Source: Halorussus pelagicus (GTDB taxonomy: Archaea; Halobacteriota; Halobacteria; Halobacteriales; Haladaptataceae). Taken from it: a stretch of 64,000 nucleotides of DNA. The notes under the pieces are model-generated. The model searched no databases. It worked only from the letters and a program-made list of their open reading frames with translations, and had not been told where the DNA came from. This document shows, one piece after another, positions 3,284-11,067 of the stretch. Numbering within the stretch: position 1 is the first letter of the stretch; every line of letters begins with the position of its first letter. Position numbers and translations under genes: made by a program. Location of the stretch: the NCBI RefSeq assembly GCF_004087835.1, contig NZ_CP035119.1, positions 124,001 to 188,000 on the forward strand, written 5' to 3'.

Positions 3284-5416
3284 ATGCGCCCACGATTCGA
3301 TTCACCTGACGACGGAACTGGTGTGGAAATAATCGACCCCATCGAAAACCATCGCTACGTGCTGTACACTCCCGAACCCGTATCGCTGGAACCGGCCGAC
3401 ACCGAGGCGTTCGCGTATCCGGTGTCGGTCGCTCGCCGATTCGTCACCTCGAAGATAACCCTGCCGTCGAATCCCTACTTGGGAATTATGGACGCGAGCG
3501 ACGGGAAACACATTTCGGACATAAGTTACGGCGAGATCCGGCAATTTGACGACGACCAGTATCTCCTGCACGTCGGGGCGCCGTTCAAGACGTATCTGTG
3601 CATCGACTCGTCGCTTCATGTCGAAAATCGCACACCCGAAGTCAAAATCGAGTTTAGGTCCGAAACCTCTGTCAAAGTCGGCGCACGGTCATCGCACACC
3701 TCGCCCGCGTCCACTGTCACGGTGCCGGACGACCCCGAGGCCGTCATGAAAGCGGTATCGACGTTCGGGTCGGCGCTCAAGACGACAACTCCCGAACAGG
3801 CGTGGCCCACCCTCCGGGGCCACCCACCGCGTCTCGAACGAGGCGAGGAGTTGTCGATTCCGGACGAACTCGACGTGCCGGACACGGGAGTCACCCTCCA
3901 CGTCCCGACCGACTACGAACACGTTTTCCCGGTCGCGCCGCTTGCGTACTACCTCGGGGCGAGCGTCGTACCCGGCAACCCGCCGCGGTTGACTACCGAG
4001 GACGGATTCGTCCATCATCTCGGCGAGGGCGAAAAGTTCGAAAACGAAGTCGCTCGTGTGCTGAAGCAGGTAATCGTTCTCGATTGTGTGACTCGGGCCG
4101 AGACCGAGGGGTTCCATCCGGTTGACCTCGCCGAGCGCCGAGCGGTCGAGTCGGTCACCGACCTTGACTTCGAGGCGTTGTACGACGCGTCGCTCGCCGA
4201 GCGCCTCCCAACGTATCTCTCGGTGCCCGAGACAGTTCTCGACGAGGTTCAACCGTGGTGGAGTCGAGTCACTTACGCACGACCGGTCGCGGAAAGTCTC
4301 GAACTCCTGCCGTACATCGCCGACGATCTCTCGATACTCCGCGTGAAGCCCGCTTCGTCCGACTCCCAGCCGTCTGCAAACGTCGAAAACAGCCCCCAGC
4401 AGGACGCGCTGCGTTCGTTCAAGCGACGCTCCGACATCGCCGCGCTCGACCTTCCCTCGGACTCCGACGGCCGAGCGACCGGCGTTCCGGACTCCGACGA
4501 GTACGTCCCGCTTCCCGAAGTCGAGGCACTGGAGCGAGCGTGGGTCGGCGACGGGACGCCGGTCCACGGGACGAAACTCCATCCCGCAGCGTTCCGCCAC
4601 GAGCGAACGGAGGCAACCGATGGCGTCATCGAGGTGACGGTGGTCTGTAACGACGAGCAGATGCGCGAGGAGTGGGACACCGTCTCGGAAGTGTACGGCG
4701 AACGAGAGACGGTCCCGTTCGAGGTGGACTGTCGGTTCGGGGTCTCGACCGACGAACTCCGGGCGCTGTTGGCTGAGGACCACGACCTGTTCCACTTCAT
4801 CGGCCACATCGACGGGCGCGGGTTGGCGTGTCCCGACGGAATCCTTGACGCCGAAACGGTCTCGGAAACAGGAGCGACGACGATACTACTCAACGCGTGT
4901 CGCTCGCACGACCAAGGGGTCGCGCTGGTGGAAGCGGGTGCCCGCGCGGCCATCGTGAGTTGGGGAGACGTGGGGAATCTCGGTGCGGTCGAGGTCGGTG
5001 AGACGTTTGCACGCCTGCTCAACTACGGCTTCACCGTCGGTAGCGCGCTCGAAATCGTCGAAGAACACACGAGCATCGGTCGTCACTACGTTGCGGTTGG
5101 GGACCCGAACATCACGGTGGCGCAATGTGATGACGCCGCGCCGATACTCTTCGAGATGACATCGGGTACGCCAGTGCAGTACGGTAACGAAGTCGAAACA
5201 AAAGTAACGAACTATCCCGACCCGGGGTACGCCGTCGGGTCCATAATCGTCTCGTCGCTTCGAGACGAGGACGACCCCGAGTTCTTCGCCGTCCCCGGCG
5301 TCCAGCGGTTCACGAATTCGGTCGAGAAAGTCGAGAACCAGCTCGGAGACTACTCGGCACCAATAGTCGTCGATGGAGAACTCTGCTGGACCGACGAATG
5401 GTTCGGTGACGAGTAA
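3284..5416 (+). CDS. CHAT-domain (caspase-like) protein
   Basis: A 710-residue protein. Residues about 1-420 are a haloarchaeal N-terminal region rich in beta strands with no family I can name. Residues about 440-630 form a CHAT-like caspase-fold domain: DLFHFIGHIDGRG supplies the candidate catalytic His508 and LLNACRSHDQG the candidate Cys539, followed by AGARAAIVSWGDV as in CHAT peptidases. The last 80 residues form a short beta-rich tail. It has no signal peptide or membrane helix. CHAT proteins in bacteria act as proteases in programmed death or phage defence (for example Craspase-associated TPR-CHAT), but some are inactive. Here both catalytic residues are present. It follows the DUF7504-like gene by 51 bases. 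The substrate is unknown. Confidence 0.75.
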   Translation: MRPRFDSPDDGTGVEIIDPIENHRYVLYTPEPVSLEPADTEAFAYPVSVARRFVTSKITLPSNPYLGIMDASDGKHISDISYGEIRQFDDDQYLLHVGAPFKTYLCIDSSLHVENRTPEVKIEFRSETSVKVGARSSHTSPASTVTVPDDPEAVMKAVSTFGSALKTTTPEQAWPTLRGHPPRLERGEELSIPDELDVPDTGVTLHVPTDYEHVFPVAPLAYYLGASVVPGNPPRLTTEDGFVHHLGEGEKFENEVARVLKQVIVLDCVTRAETEGFHPVDLAERRAVESVTDLDFEALYDASLAERLPTYLSVPETVLDEVQPWWSRVTYARPVAESLELLPYIADDLSILRVKPASSDSQPSANVENSPQQDALRSFKRRSDIAALDLPSDSDGRATGVPDSDEYVPLPEVEALERAWVGDGTPVHGTKLHPAAFRHERTEATDGVIEVTVVCNDEQMREEWDTVSEVYGERETVPFEVDCRFGVSTDELRALLAEDHDLFHFIGHIDGRGLACPDGILDAETVSETGATTILLNACRSHDQGVALVEAGARAAIVSWGDVGNLGAVEVGETFARLLNYGFTVGSALEIVEEHTSIGRHYVAVGDPNITVAQCDDAAPILFEMTSGTPVQYGNEVETKVTNYPDPGYAVGSIIVSSLRDEDDPEFFAVPGVQRFTNSVEKVENQLGDYSAPIVVDGELCWTDEWFGDE

Positions 5417-6013: not shown

Positions 6014-7072
6014 ATGAAACACTCAATCCTGGACGCGGTGGGGTCGCCGCTCGTCAGGGTATCGTCGCCCGAGGGTGCGACGGTCGCGGCCAAGGTCGAG
6101 GGGTTCAATCCGGGCGGGTCCGCGAAGGACCGGCCCGCCCGCGAGATGATTGCCGCCGCCGAGCGCGCCGGGGCGATAACGCCGGGCGACCGCCTCGTCG
6201 AGCCGACCAGCGGCAACACCGGCATCGGTCTCGCCGTCGCGGCCGCGGCGCGGGGCTACGACCTGACCATCGTGATGCCCGAATCGAAGTCCCCAGAGCG
6301 CCGGAAACTGCTGAAAGCTTACGGCGCGGACCTCGAACTCGTGGATGGCGAGATGGAGAGCGCCCGCGAGCGCGCTGACCGACTGGCCGAGGAGGACGGC
6401 GTCGTCCAGATGGGTCAGTTCGAGAACCCGGCGAACGCCGAGGCCCACTACCGGACCACCGCCGAGGAGATTCTCGAACAGGTCGAGGGACGAGAAATCG
6501 ATGCCTTCGTCGCGGGCGTGGGCACCGGCGGCACCATCACCGGCACCGCCTCGCGCCTGCGCGAGGAGTTCCCCGAGATGGAGGTCGTCGCGGTCGAACC
6601 CGAGCGAAACGCCGTCCTCTCGACGGAACTGGGGGAGGACTCGTCCGACAGCGGCCTCTCGACGGAGGGTGACGACTATCAGGGGATGGGTCCGGGGTTC
6701 GTCAGCGACCTGCTCGATACGGACCTGCTCGATAGCGTGGAGACAGTGGAGTTGGAGGACGCCGAAGCGGAAGCCCGCCGACTCGCCCGCGAAGAGGGTA
6801 TTCTGGTCGGCCAGTCGTCGGGCGCGGCGTCGGTCGCCGCCAACCGAGTGGCCGAGCGCATGGCCGAACCCGAGTTGAACTGCCCGGAGGTCCCCGACGA
6901 CATTGCGAATATGCTGGCCGACGACGGCGGTGAGCGCCTTGCGGAGGTGCAGGCCTCGTCGGGCGCTCGACCCGACGGCGGTGCAAACGACGGCTACGAC
7001 GACTGTCCGCTCGTCGTGACGGTGTTCCCCGACAGCGGCGAGCGATACCTCTCGACCGGGATGTTCGATTAA
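6014..7072 (+). CDS. cysteine synthase family PLP enzyme (CysK/CysM-like)
   Basis: A 352-residue fold-type II PLP enzyme. Lys38 in NPGGSAKDR is the Schiff-base lysine, TSGNTG (about 64-69) binds the alpha-carboxylate, and GTGGTITG binds the PLP phosphate. These mark the O-acetylserine sulfhydrylase/cystathionine beta-synthase group that joins sulfide to an activated serine. At about residue 222 it has GMGPGFV where many CysK proteins have GIGAGF, and the C-terminal 50 residues form a haloarchaeal extension rich in Asp/Gly. GTTTATAC at 5984-5991 is a plausible TATA box. Alternative roles such as CBS-type activity cannot be excluded by sequence alone. Confidence 0.88.
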   Translation: MKHSILDAVGSPLVRVSSPEGATVAAKVEGFNPGGSAKDRPAREMIAAAERAGAITPGDRLVEPTSGNTGIGLAVAAAARGYDLTIVMPESKSPERRKLLKAYGADLELVDGEMESARERADRLAEEDGVVQMGQFENPANAEAHYRTTAEEILEQVEGREIDAFVAGVGTGGTITGTASRLREEFPEMEVVAVEPERNAVLSTELGEDSSDSGLSTEGDDYQGMGPGFVSDLLDTDLLDSVETVELEDAEAEARRLAREEGILVGQSSGAASVAANRVAERMAEPELNCPEVPDDIANMLADDGGERLAEVQASSGARPDGGANDGYDDCPLVVTVFPDSGERYLSTGMFD

Positions 7073-7218
7073 CCGTCACAAAGCAGTTGTTTTACCTGTA
7101 ACTTTTACTACTCCTATTATATAAATATACTATTTTATTGTTGTACTGACGGTACAGATGGTCGATATTGTTCAGAACAACCGAGTATATAATGTATATA
7201 AATCTAATATTTGTGATT

Positions 7219-8691
7219 TTAGCTGCGAAGTTGACATCGTCGGCTGATGACTGCTGACCATAACAGGATGGCGCCACAACAGACGAATGCGATTGGTGTC
7301 ACGACATGCGCTTGTCCGGTTGCTCCCATGAAGTCAAGCCACTTACTTTGGGCACCCGCGTACCAAAGTAGCAAATAACTCCCCTCGAATAGCCGACTGG
7401 TTTTAGTCCAGCTACCGCTGGCGAGCGCGAGTGCAGGAACAAAGACTGCACCTGAGACTAAAACGAATAGTTGGATCACGTCTCCAGCAAGGAATATACG
7501 GAGTCCGACTCCAGACATGAACAAGAGTGTGATCGCTACCCCGACAGCCCAAATAGCGAGGAGTTGACCAACCGGGTAGAGGGAAGAGCCGACGAACGGC
7601 ATTGTTCCGTGTCGGCTCTCTCTAATTCCCATTTTTGACCAGATCAGAAGCGGCCATATCCAGAGCAAAGGAACGATAGAATCACGCACGGTTGGTAGTG
7701 GAAGTGAAACAGAGGCTAACCACAGAAGTCCACCTCCGAGATACCACCCACGGCGGTGACCTCCAAGTAAGAGTCGTCCCTCTGCCCAAAGAATCCGGGG
7801 TAAGTCAATCCCAGCATCAGTATTGACTGACGAGAGTGAGGTCTCTATCGAAACTTCGTCCGGGGTACTCAAGGGAGAAGTCGTTTCGACTTCGGAGTCA
7901 TCCTCGCTATCACCGGAATCTACAGTGGTGTCGAATCGGTTGAACTGGACTGCACTGATGCCGACAACGACGAGCGTAGCAGCGACGTATAAGAGACGTC
8001 GGAGGGCAATTGTACCAGTCAAGGAAAGTCCATTCCATAACGTCTCACCGTTCAGCGTCTGGGTATCCGGTACCGACTGTATACTTGATACGACGGGCCG
8101 TATTCCCATCGGGTCAACAATGCCAGAAACAAACACTAACAGCACCGTGAAAAAATAGACAACACTGGCCCATCCACCACGCAATGATTCGATGGTCTCG
8201 AATAAGATAGCAAGCGCCGAAACAAGAACGACTGCTGGAAAAGTCAATAGCAGAAATGGCAAGACGAGTTTCCAGATATCTAAGCTGCCGACTCCTTCTA
8301 TTTGAAACCGGAACACAGCCACAATCATCATAATACACAGAACTATTGAGAGAACCAATACATTTCCAAGCCATTTTCCGAAGATGTAGGTTTCGTCTCG
8401 AACAGGTGTCGCTGCAATTAATTCGCCGGGACCATCGTACCGGTCCATCGCTATTGCATCTCTCACAACGAAAAATCCGAATAAGAGAATAGCTATCGCG
8501 GCGACAACTGCCGTGTGTGCGCCAACTAGTGCTGCGTTGTTGGCCGCTAAGTCTCTGTTAAACCCAACTGTCGCAGTTTCAGAAAGTGCAAAATAGGATG
8601 CGACAACGACGACTGCGAGGAGACGATATCCTGCGAGGCGACTACGAAAACTCGTCCAAGCAATATGGTAGCATGCTCGCAGTTTGTTCAT
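7219..8691 (-). CDS. ABC-2 type transporter permease
   Basis: A 490-residue polytopic membrane protein with two sets of about six hydrophobic helices separated by a charged, Asp/Ser/Glu-rich cytoplasmic linker (about 255-290). This double layout is seen in large ABC-2 permeases. The N-terminal ACYHIAWTSFRSRLAG is a typical amphipathic lead-in, and SLRGGWASVVYFFTVLL is a permease core helix. ATG 8691 overlaps the stop of the upstream ATPase gene by four bases (ATGA), so the two form a translationally coupled pair. Third codon positions are richer in A/T than in surrounding genes, pointing to acquired DNA. The substrate is not evident; the nearby cysteine-rich micropeptide is a candidate. Confidence 0.85.
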   Translation of the reverse strand: MNKLRACYHIAWTSFRSRLAGYRLLAVVVVASYFALSETATVGFNRDLAANNAALVGAHTAVVAAIAILLFGFFVVRDAIAMDRYDGPGELIAATPVRDETYIFGKWLGNVLVLSIVLCIMMIVAVFRFQIEGVGSLDIWKLVLPFLLLTFPAVVLVSALAILFETIESLRGGWASVVYFFTVLLVFVSGIVDPMGIRPVVSSIQSVPDTQTLNGETLWNGLSLTGTIALRRLLYVAATLVVVGISAVQFNRFDTTVDSGDSEDDSEVETTSPLSTPDEVSIETSLSSVNTDAGIDLPRILWAEGRLLLGGHRRGWYLGGGLLWLASVSLPLPTVRDSIVPLLWIWPLLIWSKMGIRESRHGTMPFVGSSLYPVGQLLAIWAVGVAITLLFMSGVGLRIFLAGDVIQLFVLVSGAVFVPALALASGSWTKTSRLFEGSYLLLWYAGAQSKWLDFMGATGQAHVVTPIAFVCCGAILLWSAVISRRCQLRS

Positions 8692-9566
8692 CGTGCCTCA
8701 CCAGAAGTCATGTCGAGATATGCGTCTTCGAGTGTCGGTTCTACACGATTTGCGTTCGGTCCTGGCGCTTGATCCGAAATAACACGGGTGTGAACGCCAT
8801 CGCTTCGACGCGTCGTTCCACTTACCAGATAGTTCCGTTTTATATCTGGGAGGTCCTCACGGGAGACGATCCACTCCCAGACATTTCCTTTAACTGCAGA
8901 AATCGCTTTTTCCGGTGTTGTATGGGTCAGTAACGCTCCACCATTCATTATGGCGATCTCACTCGCGGTTGCCTCAACGTCCGAAACGATGTGGGTAGAA
9001 AGGATGACAACAATGTCATCTGCAAGACTAGACAAGATGTTGCGGAAACGGACGCGCTCCGCGGGATCAAGTCCGACCGTCGGCTCATCAACTATTAGCA
9101 GATTCGGATCGTTAAGTAGTGCCAGTGCAATCCCGACGCGCTGTTCCATCCCACCTGAAAAATCTGATAGCTTTTGATCTCTGGTGTCGGTAAGGTTAAC
9201 TAAATCGAGGAGTTCATCGATTCGGGTTTCGGCTTGGCCTGAACGGACTCCTTTCAATGCGGCAAAATATTTGAGGAAATCCTCGGCGGTCAAATCAGGA
9301 TAAGTCCCGAAATTCTGGGGGAGATACCCCAAGTCCGAACGGACGCTCTTTGGCGACTCGGCGATGTCCGTTCCGTTCCACATGACAGTTCCCTCAGTCG
9401 GTTGGGTAATAGTTGCGAGAATCCGCATCAACGTTGACTTTCCTGCTCCGTTCGGCCCGAGCAACCCGAGTACACCGGTGGTGGTACTGAGCGTGAAATT
9501 CCGGAGCGCCCAAAGGTCACCATATCGTTTGCCGACGTTCTTGATCCGTATTTCCATCTCGGTCAT
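8688..9566 (-). CDS. ABC transporter ATP-binding protein
   Basis: A 292-residue ABC ATPase. Walker A is GPNGAGKST, the Q-loop lies in LGYLPQNFG, the signature is FSGGMEQRVGIA (a slight variant of LSGGQ), Walker B is LLIVDEP and the H-loop is STHIV. The C-terminal 80 residues form a regulatory tail with LEDAYLDM, seen in ABC-2 exporters. It is first in a two-gene operon with the permease at 7219-8691 (four-base overlap). It is transcribed divergently from a 21-codon cysteine-rich peptide gene at 9799, which suggests a dedicated exporter or resistance pump; this last point is inference from layout. Confidence 0.93.
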   Translation of the reverse strand: MTEMEIRIKNVGKRYGDLWALRNFTLSTTTGVLGLLGPNGAGKSTLMRILATITQPTEGTVMWNGTDIAESPKSVRSDLGYLPQNFGTYPDLTAEDFLKYFAALKGVRSGQAETRIDELLDLVNLTDTRDQKLSDFSGGMEQRVGIALALLNDPNLLIVDEPTVGLDPAERVRFRNILSSLADDIVVILSTHIVSDVEATASEIAIMNGGALLTHTTPEKAISAVKGNVWEWIVSREDLPDIKRNYLVSGTTRRSDGVHTRVISDQAPGPNANRVEPTLEDAYLDMTSGEAR

Positions 9567-9593
9567 ATCGCATAGTCCTACTTATACCATTAC

Positions 9594-9601
9594 AATAAAA
9601 G
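9594..9601 (-). promoter_or_regulatory. TATA-like box of the ABC operon
   Basis: On the minus strand GCTTTTATTG, centred about 30 bases upstream of the ATPase ATG at 9566, fits an archaeal TATA box giving a leaderless or nearly leaderless transcript. Confidence 0.45.
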
Positions 9602-9626
9602 CACATATTCCAAAATTTAGTAGTCG

Positions 9627-9642
9627 CGTATAATATTATACG
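9627..9642. promoter_or_regulatory. perfect 16-base palindrome, candidate operator
   Basis: CGTATAATATTATACG reads the same on both strands. It lies in the 232-base divergent region between the ABC operon and the micropeptide gene, just upstream of the ABC operon TATA box. This is where an archaeal regulator would control one or both transcripts. No regulator gene is present in the island, so one would have to act in trans. Confidence 0.45.
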
Positions 9643-9751
9643 AAGCAGCCATATATCCACATATGAATAATAATATTCAGGAACAACAGTTGGATGGAAT
9701 TATGTATTTAGTGCGAATATATAAGTAATATTTTATTCTAACGCATATAGA

Positions 9752-9759
9752 AATATTTA
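9752..9759 (+). promoter_or_regulatory. TATA-like box of the micropeptide gene
   Basis: AATATTTA lies about 26-30 bases before the TAACTGGAGG stretch, so transcription would begin around 9780-9785, just ahead of the Shine-Dalgarno at 9786. The leader would be very short but would keep the ribosome-binding site. Confidence 0.45.
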
Positions 9760-9785
9760 ACATCAGTCACTAGGTATGTGTAACT

Positions 9786-9793
9786 GGAGGTGA
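9786..9793 (+). promoter_or_regulatory. perfect Shine-Dalgarno of the micropeptide gene
   Basis: GGAGGTGA is complementary along all eight bases to the 16S rRNA 3' end encoded in this window (the same string occurs at 40087-40094 on the plus strand, the complement of 16S). It sits five bases before ATG 9799. Such a strong site is unusual in haloarchaea, where most genes are leaderless or have weak sites, and it is the main reason to believe the tiny gene. Confidence 0.75.
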
Positions 9794-9798
9794 ACTCG

Positions 9799-9864
9799 AT
9801 GATTGACCTGAAGCCTCAGGGCAACTGTAAGAATTGCACGAGCTTCTGCTTCTGCCCCTTCTAA
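9799..9864 (+). CDS. 21-residue cysteine-rich micropeptide (candidate modified or exported peptide)
   Basis: A 22-codon frame with ATG at 9799 and TAA at 9862. The peptide starts MIDLKPQGN and ends CKNCTSFCFCPF: four cysteines at positions 10, 13, 17 and 19 in a C-terminal block rich in Phe, Ser and Thr, after a short leader-like N-terminus. The spacing C-x2-C-x3-C-x-C does not match the paired CPxCG zinc-finger micropeptides known from haloarchaea. A TATA-like box, a perfect Shine-Dalgarno and a T-rich tract after the stop frame it as a stand-alone transcript. An ABC exporter operon diverges from it and a small membrane protein follows. A ribosomally made antimicrobial or signalling peptide is possible. 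No maturation enzyme (radical SAM, LanM, YcaO) is nearby; a metal-binding peptide is the alternative. Confidence 0.7.
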   Translation: MIDLKPQGNCKNCTSFCFCPF

Positions 9865-9897
9865 GTGGGTAGACAGAGAAATAGTATCGGCTATCAG

Positions 9898-9913
9898 TTC
9901 CTTTTTGTTTTTG
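9898..9913 (+). terminator. T-rich terminator after the micropeptide gene
   Basis: TTCCTTTTTGTTTTTG lies 34 bases past the stop codon. Oligo-T tracts without a strong hairpin are typical archaeal terminators. Confidence 0.5.
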
Positions 9914-9954
9914 ACAGTAGTGATCTACAGCCAATTCATACACTTGCATCCTAA

Positions 9955-9974
9955 CTTAAATGTAAATATTTAAG
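9955..9974 (+). promoter_or_regulatory. inverted repeat and TATA region before the 128-residue membrane protein gene
   Basis: CTTAAAT and ATTTAAG form seven-base arms with a six-base spacer. A TATA-rich stretch (TATTTTATATATA, 9981-9993) and GAGGT lie between it and ATG 9999. The gene therefore seems to have its own promoter, possibly operator-controlled. Confidence 0.35.
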
Positions 9975-9998
9975 TATAGATATTTTATATATAGAGGT

Positions 9999-10385
9999 AT
10001 GAAGTACAAAATCAGAGAAACGCTGTTTGGCCGTTCCCGTACAGTGTCGCGTAACCATGCTAGTCTCGCAGCTATCTTATTTATCGGTATAGTTGCGATT
10101 TTTGAGTTAGCTCCTAATCTGAAGTTCCAACAGTGGTTCGCGTACATTTTGTTCGGGATCATGGGTTTTACGGCCTTGATCAATGCATATCGAAATAGTG
10201 GAGTCGTGATTAGTATTATTCTCGCCGGGTCAATTCCACTCGGTGCTTTTACCCTTGCGGCCGTGACCAAACAACCGCCCACAGATGTGCTACTCAGTGA
10301 GTTTGTGCGGGCGCTCTTTCTGGGGATTATTATCGCGCTTCCGGCACATCTCGTCGGTGCGGGTCTAGGGTACGTAAGTGGTTAA
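9999..10385 (+). CDS. small four-helix membrane protein of unknown function
   Basis: A 128-residue protein with a basic N-terminus (MKYKIRETLFGRSRT) and four hydrophobic segments at about 25-43, 45-66, 71-92 and 103-126, so both ends are probably cytoplasmic. It has no cysteines or recognised motif. GAGGT directly precedes ATG 9999. Codon use is A/T-rich, like the rest of the island. It is encoded 134 bases after the cysteine-rich micropeptide gene and in the same direction, across a T-rich tract. In peptide-antibiotic loci, small polytopic proteins of this size often act as immunity proteins; that is inference from position only. Confidence 0.6.
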   Translation: MKYKIRETLFGRSRTVSRNHASLAAILFIGIVAIFELAPNLKFQQWFAYILFGIMGFTALINAYRNSGVVISIILAGSIPLGAFTLAAVTKQPPTDVLLSEFVRALFLGIIIALPAHLVGAGLGYVSG

Positions 10386-10571
10386 TATTATGTTAAATAT
10401 ATTATTTTAGTAGTCCAACAATATACGGATTGGAACTTCCAGTAGAGGACACAACCAGCGCGCCAAGGGAGGAGTTTCACGACGAACAGACGATACGATA
10501 GCCACCCTCAGACAAAGGCAACAAAGTGGTAGAAGAATGTCTTATATCTTATCTTGAGATTGGAACTATCG

Positions 10572-11027
10572 TCAGTCGCCGAACTCCGATTCGGTCACGC
10601 GCACCACTACGGTATCCTCGACGTCTCGGAGGTCGTAGCTCGGAATCTCGCCGTCTTGGCGGGTTAGATACATCGGTTCCACGAGGTCGCTCTCAGCGGT
10701 CAGTCCGTAGACCTTGAGATACTCGTCGGTCTCCGCGGGGTCGATTGCGCCGTCGCGGACCGCCTCGGCGAGGCTTCGGGAGAGCCATTCGGTCTCACTG
10801 ACGCTCGGTTCGAGGACGAGGGCGTCGTCGGTGAAGCGGACGAGATACCAGTTCAGGTCGTTGAGGAGCGCGACGGCCGACCCGAGGCTGATGGTGTCCA
10901 GCGTCAGGGAGTTTTGGTACTGCTCCCGGAGGTCGTAGGTCGAGAGCGCCTCGCGGGCGGTCTCCCGCGAGACGAGTTCCGTGCGGAGGTCCACGCTCTC
11001 GGACCCGACGAGACAGACCTGAGTCAC
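10572..11027 (-). CDS. DUF5804-like haloarchaeal protein
   Basis: A 151-residue soluble protein. I chose the GTG at 11027, which gives a start of MTQVCLVGSESVDLRTELVS. The longer open frame would run into the thiI gene and its extra residues look non-coding. The pattern RETAREALSTYDLREQYQNS followed by LGSAVALLNDLNWYLVRF matches what I recall of DUF5804, a haloarchaeal family of unknown role. No membrane helix or catalytic motif is seen. It lies 40 bases downstream of thiI on the same strand, so the two may be co-transcribed. Confidence 0.7.
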   Translation of the reverse strand: MTQVCLVGSESVDLRTELVSRETAREALSTYDLREQYQNSLTLDTISLGSAVALLNDLNWYLVRFTDDALVLEPSVSETEWLSRSLAEAVRDGAIDPAETDEYLKVYGLTAESDLVEPMYLTRQDGEIPSYDLRDVEDTVVVRVTESEFGD

Positions 11028-11067
11028 ACCTCGTGGATGGCACCTACGGAGTAAAGCGATTTCGTTC

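Follow-up and report, generated by a model that had tools for sequence, protein, structure and literature searches.

A conserved cysteine-rich reading frame of 21 codons next to a divergent ABC operon in Halorussus pelagicus

In the 64-kb stretch of the Halorussus pelagicus genome considered here (64,000 nucleotides, hereafter the window), a reading frame of only 21 codons lies between a divergently oriented pair of ABC transporter genes and a gene encoding a small membrane protein. Two questions are raised by this locus, namely, whether so short a frame is a true protein-encoding gene and, if so, what its cysteine-rich product might do. Direct reading of the DNA confirmed each of the signals described in the original prediction, i.e., a Shine-Dalgarno sequence, five-base spacing, ATG and a frame closed by TAA, as well as a TATA-like box (TATTTAA at ~9745) and a T-rich tract (CCTTTTTGTTTTTG at ~9900-9913). 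The relevant features, some of which recur in a second genome of the genus (G014), are as follows:

9734-9752, forward strand: probable promoter block, CATATAG..AT.TTTAA (BRE/TATA-like), ~50 nt 5' of the ATG, with a counterpart in the G014 alignment
9786-9793, forward strand: Shine-Dalgarno sequence GGAGGTGA, 5 nt 5' of the ATG, the same in G014
9794-9798, forward strand: spacer ACTCG between GGAGGTGA and the ATG, from direct reading
9799-9864, forward strand: micropeptide gene encoding 21 residues, MIDLKPQGNCKNCTSFCFCPF, with ATG at 9799 and TAA at 9862-9864, assigned from reading, the homologue and profile search

The four cysteines fall at C10, C13, C17 and C19, a C-x2-C-x3-C-x-C spacing that is, as originally described, not of the CPxCG type. 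Across the 64-kb window, there is a single instance of GGAGGTGA followed after 3-8 nt by ATG, as compared to 0.07 expected, while GGAGGTGA and ATG followed by CxxC is found once in the entire 3.49-Mb genome.

In G014, an intact homologue, MIDIKPQGNCPKCTSFCFCLL, occupies the syntenic position behind the same Shine-Dalgarno sequence. The two peptides share 16 of 21 residues (76%), including all four cysteines, a level comparable to the 61-76% seen for the neighboring ABC proteins and the 67% seen for the membrane protein. At the DNA level, identity is 78% (62/79) over the Shine-Dalgarno sequence and reading frame versus 37-46% in flanking intergenic DNA, with values of 55% in the 22 bases 3' of the stop codon and 61% in the 33 bases 5' of the membrane protein gene; the T-rich tract has no conserved counterpart in the intergenic alignment with G014. 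Coding differences are distributed over codon positions 1, 2 and 3 as 3, 2 and 8, respectively, and when the same number of changes was placed over codons 2-19 in 20,000 simulated sets, only 0.2% retained as many residues without a stop codon. When a two-row profile was run against 392 genomes of the order, both copies scored E ~1e-15, and the best of the remaining matches reached E = 0.1. A conserved copy showing synonymous-biased change had been set beforehand as a test of the prediction, and the G014 copy, which brings the positive genomes to two only, provides it. The coding evidence that two sequences can offer is thus good, not overwhelming, and is strengthened by the exact Shine-Dalgarno sequence, the frame being intact in both genomes and the retention of the cysteines. 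As judged from these alignments, the reading frame is more than a chance opening and is almost certainly a genuine coding gene. It is very improbable that what is conserved is instead a DNA or RNA element in which the frame is open by accident; only two sequences are known and some non-coding bases 3' of the stop codon are also conserved, but the exact ribosome-binding and start signals, two intact frames, synonymous bias and conserved residues all speak for a coding frame, and no Rfam element was matched in the intergenic region.

A search for homologues in other haloarchaeal genomes, as had been proposed, yielded the G014 copy and no third. None was detected by profile search of the 392 genomes of the order, by tblastn against plasmids or by scanning ~85,000 species genomes with a pattern that required a CxxCT..FCFC core, a scan from which records belonging to the genome of the window or to very close relatives may be missing. 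The scan returned 116 stretches in genome contigs, with no haloarchaeon among the 80 listed and no matched frame resembling the micropeptide gene; 29 matches in viral contigs were likewise attributed to chance. A relaxed Shine-Dalgarno plus C..C...C.C pattern gave fewer matches in the 392 genomes than did a reversed control, the real ones being those of the window and G014. Matches to a Shine-Dalgarno plus CxxC pattern were mostly the starts of ferredoxin-like or zinc-binding proteins, weak profile matches (E 0.1-0.5) were upon inspection not genes of this type, and a match to a plant defensin (E = 9.2) was meaningless. The gene is as such lineage-restricted and undescribed in the libraries searched.

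The surroundings of the micropeptide gene were next considered, with the following features being distinguished:

6014-7072, forward strand: cysM, the 3' end of which borders the cassette
7073-10571, no strand: cassette of low GC content, bordered by the 3' ends of cysM and the DUF5804 gene, complete in the window and G014 only, among 18 genomes of the genus
7219-8691, reverse strand: ABC-2 type permease, 490 residues, the gene sharing 4 nt with that of the ATPase
8688-9566, reverse strand: ABC transporter ATPase, DrrA/GldA-like, 292 residues, divergent from the micropeptide gene
9999-10385, forward strand: membrane protein of the LFGRxRxxSR family, 128 residues, with its own TATA-like block, conserved in G014
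10572-11045, reverse strand: DUF5804 gene, the 3' end of which borders the cassette

The ABC permease, the ATPase, the divergent peptide and the small membrane protein thus make up a cassette of ~3.5 kb, the region having a GC content of 36-53% as compared to 61-71% alongside. The DUF5804 gene is present in all 18 genomes of the genus and in most of them directly faces the 3' end of cysM, across a gap of as little as ~30 bp (L262), with the short locus flanks examined revealing cysM in only some of the genomes. Given that cysM is a conserved neighbor of the empty site, its proximity was dropped as a sign of a cysteine-regulated leader. Whether presence of the peptide tracks that of the ABC operon had also been set beforehand as a test; both are found in two of the 18 genomes and neither in the other 16, such that peptide and operon are co-inherited as exporter and peptide are in a bacteriocin cassette. 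These are small numbers, and with only two carriers the co-occurrence may reflect simple linkage. The natural empty sites in sister species, together with a cassette small enough to be deleted, render function directly testable.

The adjoining divergent ABC genes are as originally described. Scans against Pfam and NCBIfam showed the ATPase to resemble DrrA, GldA and lantibiotic-protection ATPases, in each case below every curated cut-off shown, and the permease to be a poorly characterized ABC-2 type protein with a very weak match to SagH and no relative in the PDB. Such resemblances are compatible with a role in exporting small amphipathic molecules. The description of the pair as a peptide exporter fared less well, in that the family is not one dedicated to peptides; the ATPase carries no C39 peptidase domain, and no micropeptide was found near distant relatives, which share about 30-36% identity with the pair and occur in other haloarchaea as well as in certain bacteria, including the homologues at 32-36% identity in haloarchaea and in Haloferax mediterranei, Rhodococcus and Halobacterium plasmids. 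A search of the 392 genomes with the permease identified one clear orthologue, that of G014, 61-65% identical. In that draft genome (L063 7420-10910), the ATPase, permease and cysM genes each contain one apparent frameshift. These are probably sequencing errors, given that cysM of the same contig is also affected, with decay of the ABC genes being possible.

The reading preferred here, to which a probability of roughly 0.45 is assigned and which is accordingly offered tentatively, is that a genuine, translated and lineage-specific micropeptide, encoded on a small optional cassette, is exported by its own ABC pump to play a small antagonistic or signaling role outside the cell. In such a scheme, the micropeptide or its cysteine-rich C-terminal half (GNCxxCTSFCFCxx) would exit through the divergent two-gene ABC-2 exporter and would then act extracellularly, with the four cysteines being fixed by disulfides, the simplest maturation, while fixation by a trans-acting enzyme is the less likely option. 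Bacterial SkfEF, SagGHI and lantibiotic-protection pumps, in which a DrrA-like ATPase and an ABC-2 permease are encoded beside a tiny cysteine-containing peptide, are presumably among the closest parallels, yet the cassette proteins score below the curated cut-offs throughout and have no modifying enzyme linked to them. Export is also argued against by the lack of a Gly-Gly motif in the peptide and by the fact that carriers number two genomes while distant ABC relatives have no peptide. That an enzyme-free, near-leaderless, cysteine-rich peptide of 21 residues and its own two-gene pump constitute a minimal archaeal cassette for antagonism or signaling is rather doubtful. Were this the case, such a cassette would escape both annotation pipelines and antiSMASH-type searches, the gene being too short and a modifying enzyme being absent. 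Should the peptide be exported and active, secreted cysteine-rich peptides of haloarchaea would extend beyond the known lanthipeptide and halocin classes, with their genes falling under the usual size limit. In favor of such a role, lanthipeptide synthetases abound in the genus, such that antagonistic peptides are likely part of its biology (PMC12144867).

The main rival to export, in itself somewhat unlikely, is an intracellular metal- or thiol-binding peptide, in which C-x2-C-x3-C-x-C would hold Zn, Cu(I) or Fe-S and so regulate or buffer for the ABC operon. Four conserved cysteines within ten residues would suit such a role, as would the divergent gene layout suit a local regulator. Moreover, haloarchaea contain many small cysteine-based zinc-binding proteins (PMC11241148, PMC10716476), one of which, Brz, regulates a neighboring gene (PMC2253796). 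The micropeptide resembles these in being very small and cysteine-based; still, they present two C(P)xCG motifs (PMC11241148), whereas the micropeptide offers CKNC and CFC. Furthermore, a peptide of 21 residues that ends in the hydrophobic FCFCxx would offer very little length for folding around zinc or for binding DNA, and no metal-handling gene is found in the cassette.

A different route to an active product, modification of a RiPP precursor in trans by a LanM or YcaO enzyme encoded elsewhere in the genome, was also weighed. As in the original prediction, no modifying enzyme was visible, Pfam and NCBIfam scans together with a map of reading frames revealing only the ABC genes and the membrane protein in the cassette. 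The micropeptide gene does have traits of a RiPP precursor gene, i.e., a small frame with translation signals and a core conserved in two species, and its tail contains Cys, Ser and Thr. On the other hand, at most nine residues precede the first cysteine and there is no leader with a cleavage site, such that leaderless types are those that remain compatible. Both peptide-bearing genomes encode candidate enzymes, with four LanM and two YcaO proteins in that of the window and two LanM and three YcaO proteins in G014, but such enzymes are likewise frequent in congeneric genomes that lack the peptide; LanM is found in 11 and YcaO in all 18 of the genomes, with six LanM proteins in one lacking the peptide (G007). 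The four LanM-type synthetases of the window's genome (L302-L305) map to G000:C1:531914, 2911854, 905262 and 1986185, elsewhere on the chromosome rather than next to the micropeptide gene. In published searches, archaeal lanthipeptide precursors were sought and found adjoining lanM (PMC10105419, PMC12144867). The class II lanthipeptides known as archalans are, like the micropeptide, short haloarchaeal products with C-terminal Cys and Ser/Thr, mostly encoded in clusters that, as here, include a transporter (PMC10105419, PMC12144867), although archalan genes lie beside lanM, while the present cassette has no lanM and encodes a near-leaderless peptide with four Cys to two Ser/Thr. Modification in trans is thus quite improbable.

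The DNA at the 3' end of the frame bears on yet another explanation, as it contains the following feature:

9842-9880, forward strand: inverted repeat over the last codons and stop codon, weak in the window, with G014 having a 10-bp stem at the corresponding position

Such an element could belong to a regulatory leader, in which stalling of the ribosome on the cysteine-rich tail, together with the 3' hairpin, would control the mRNA or the downstream membrane protein gene. The strong Shine-Dalgarno sequence, the bunching of cysteine codons near the end, the conservation of TAGACAGA after the stop codon and the position of the hairpin over the last codons in G014 (z -3.3) would fit this scheme. 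In the window, however, the hairpin scarcely improves on shuffled sequence (z -1.3, or -0.02 over a longer stretch), and its register slips between the two genomes with no covariation. In addition, a conserved TATA-like block precedes the membrane protein gene itself, relatives of which are found elsewhere without the frame. Attenuators of this kind are, to our knowledge, not known from archaea. A leader function is therefore improbable; it is possible that the hairpin acts as a terminator or processing site.

Returning to the export reading, the membrane protein encoded 3' of the micropeptide gene would be the third component. The original prediction placed a four-helix membrane protein here; a membrane protein is indeed encoded at this position, with at least three membrane segments being supported by a crude hydropathy scan. 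The label of immunity gene was not upheld, given that the family, found in 46 of the 392 genomes, is widespread without the peptide or ABC genes, with no comparable small cysteine-rich gene near the other family loci checked, and given that a member stands alone at the cassette site in G007. The gene is hence not specific to the cassette, as would an immunity gene be in a bacteriocin cassette, and a role as an accessory or immunity protein is possible but unproven. Of the layout originally envisaged, namely, a ribosomal peptide with exporter and immunity gene, the association of the peptide with the ABC genes thus stands while the immunity assignment does not, leaving that reading possible and unproven. 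The lone G007 gene (L253 4919-5299), which lies between cysM and the DUF5804 gene and is high in GC, suggests either loss of the ABC and peptide portion or its arrival beside an older gene.

As a separate observation, a 710-residue protein with a sub-threshold match to CHAT (caspase-like) domains is encoded near the site, both in the window (3284-5416, forward strand) and in G007 (L253 7022-9169).
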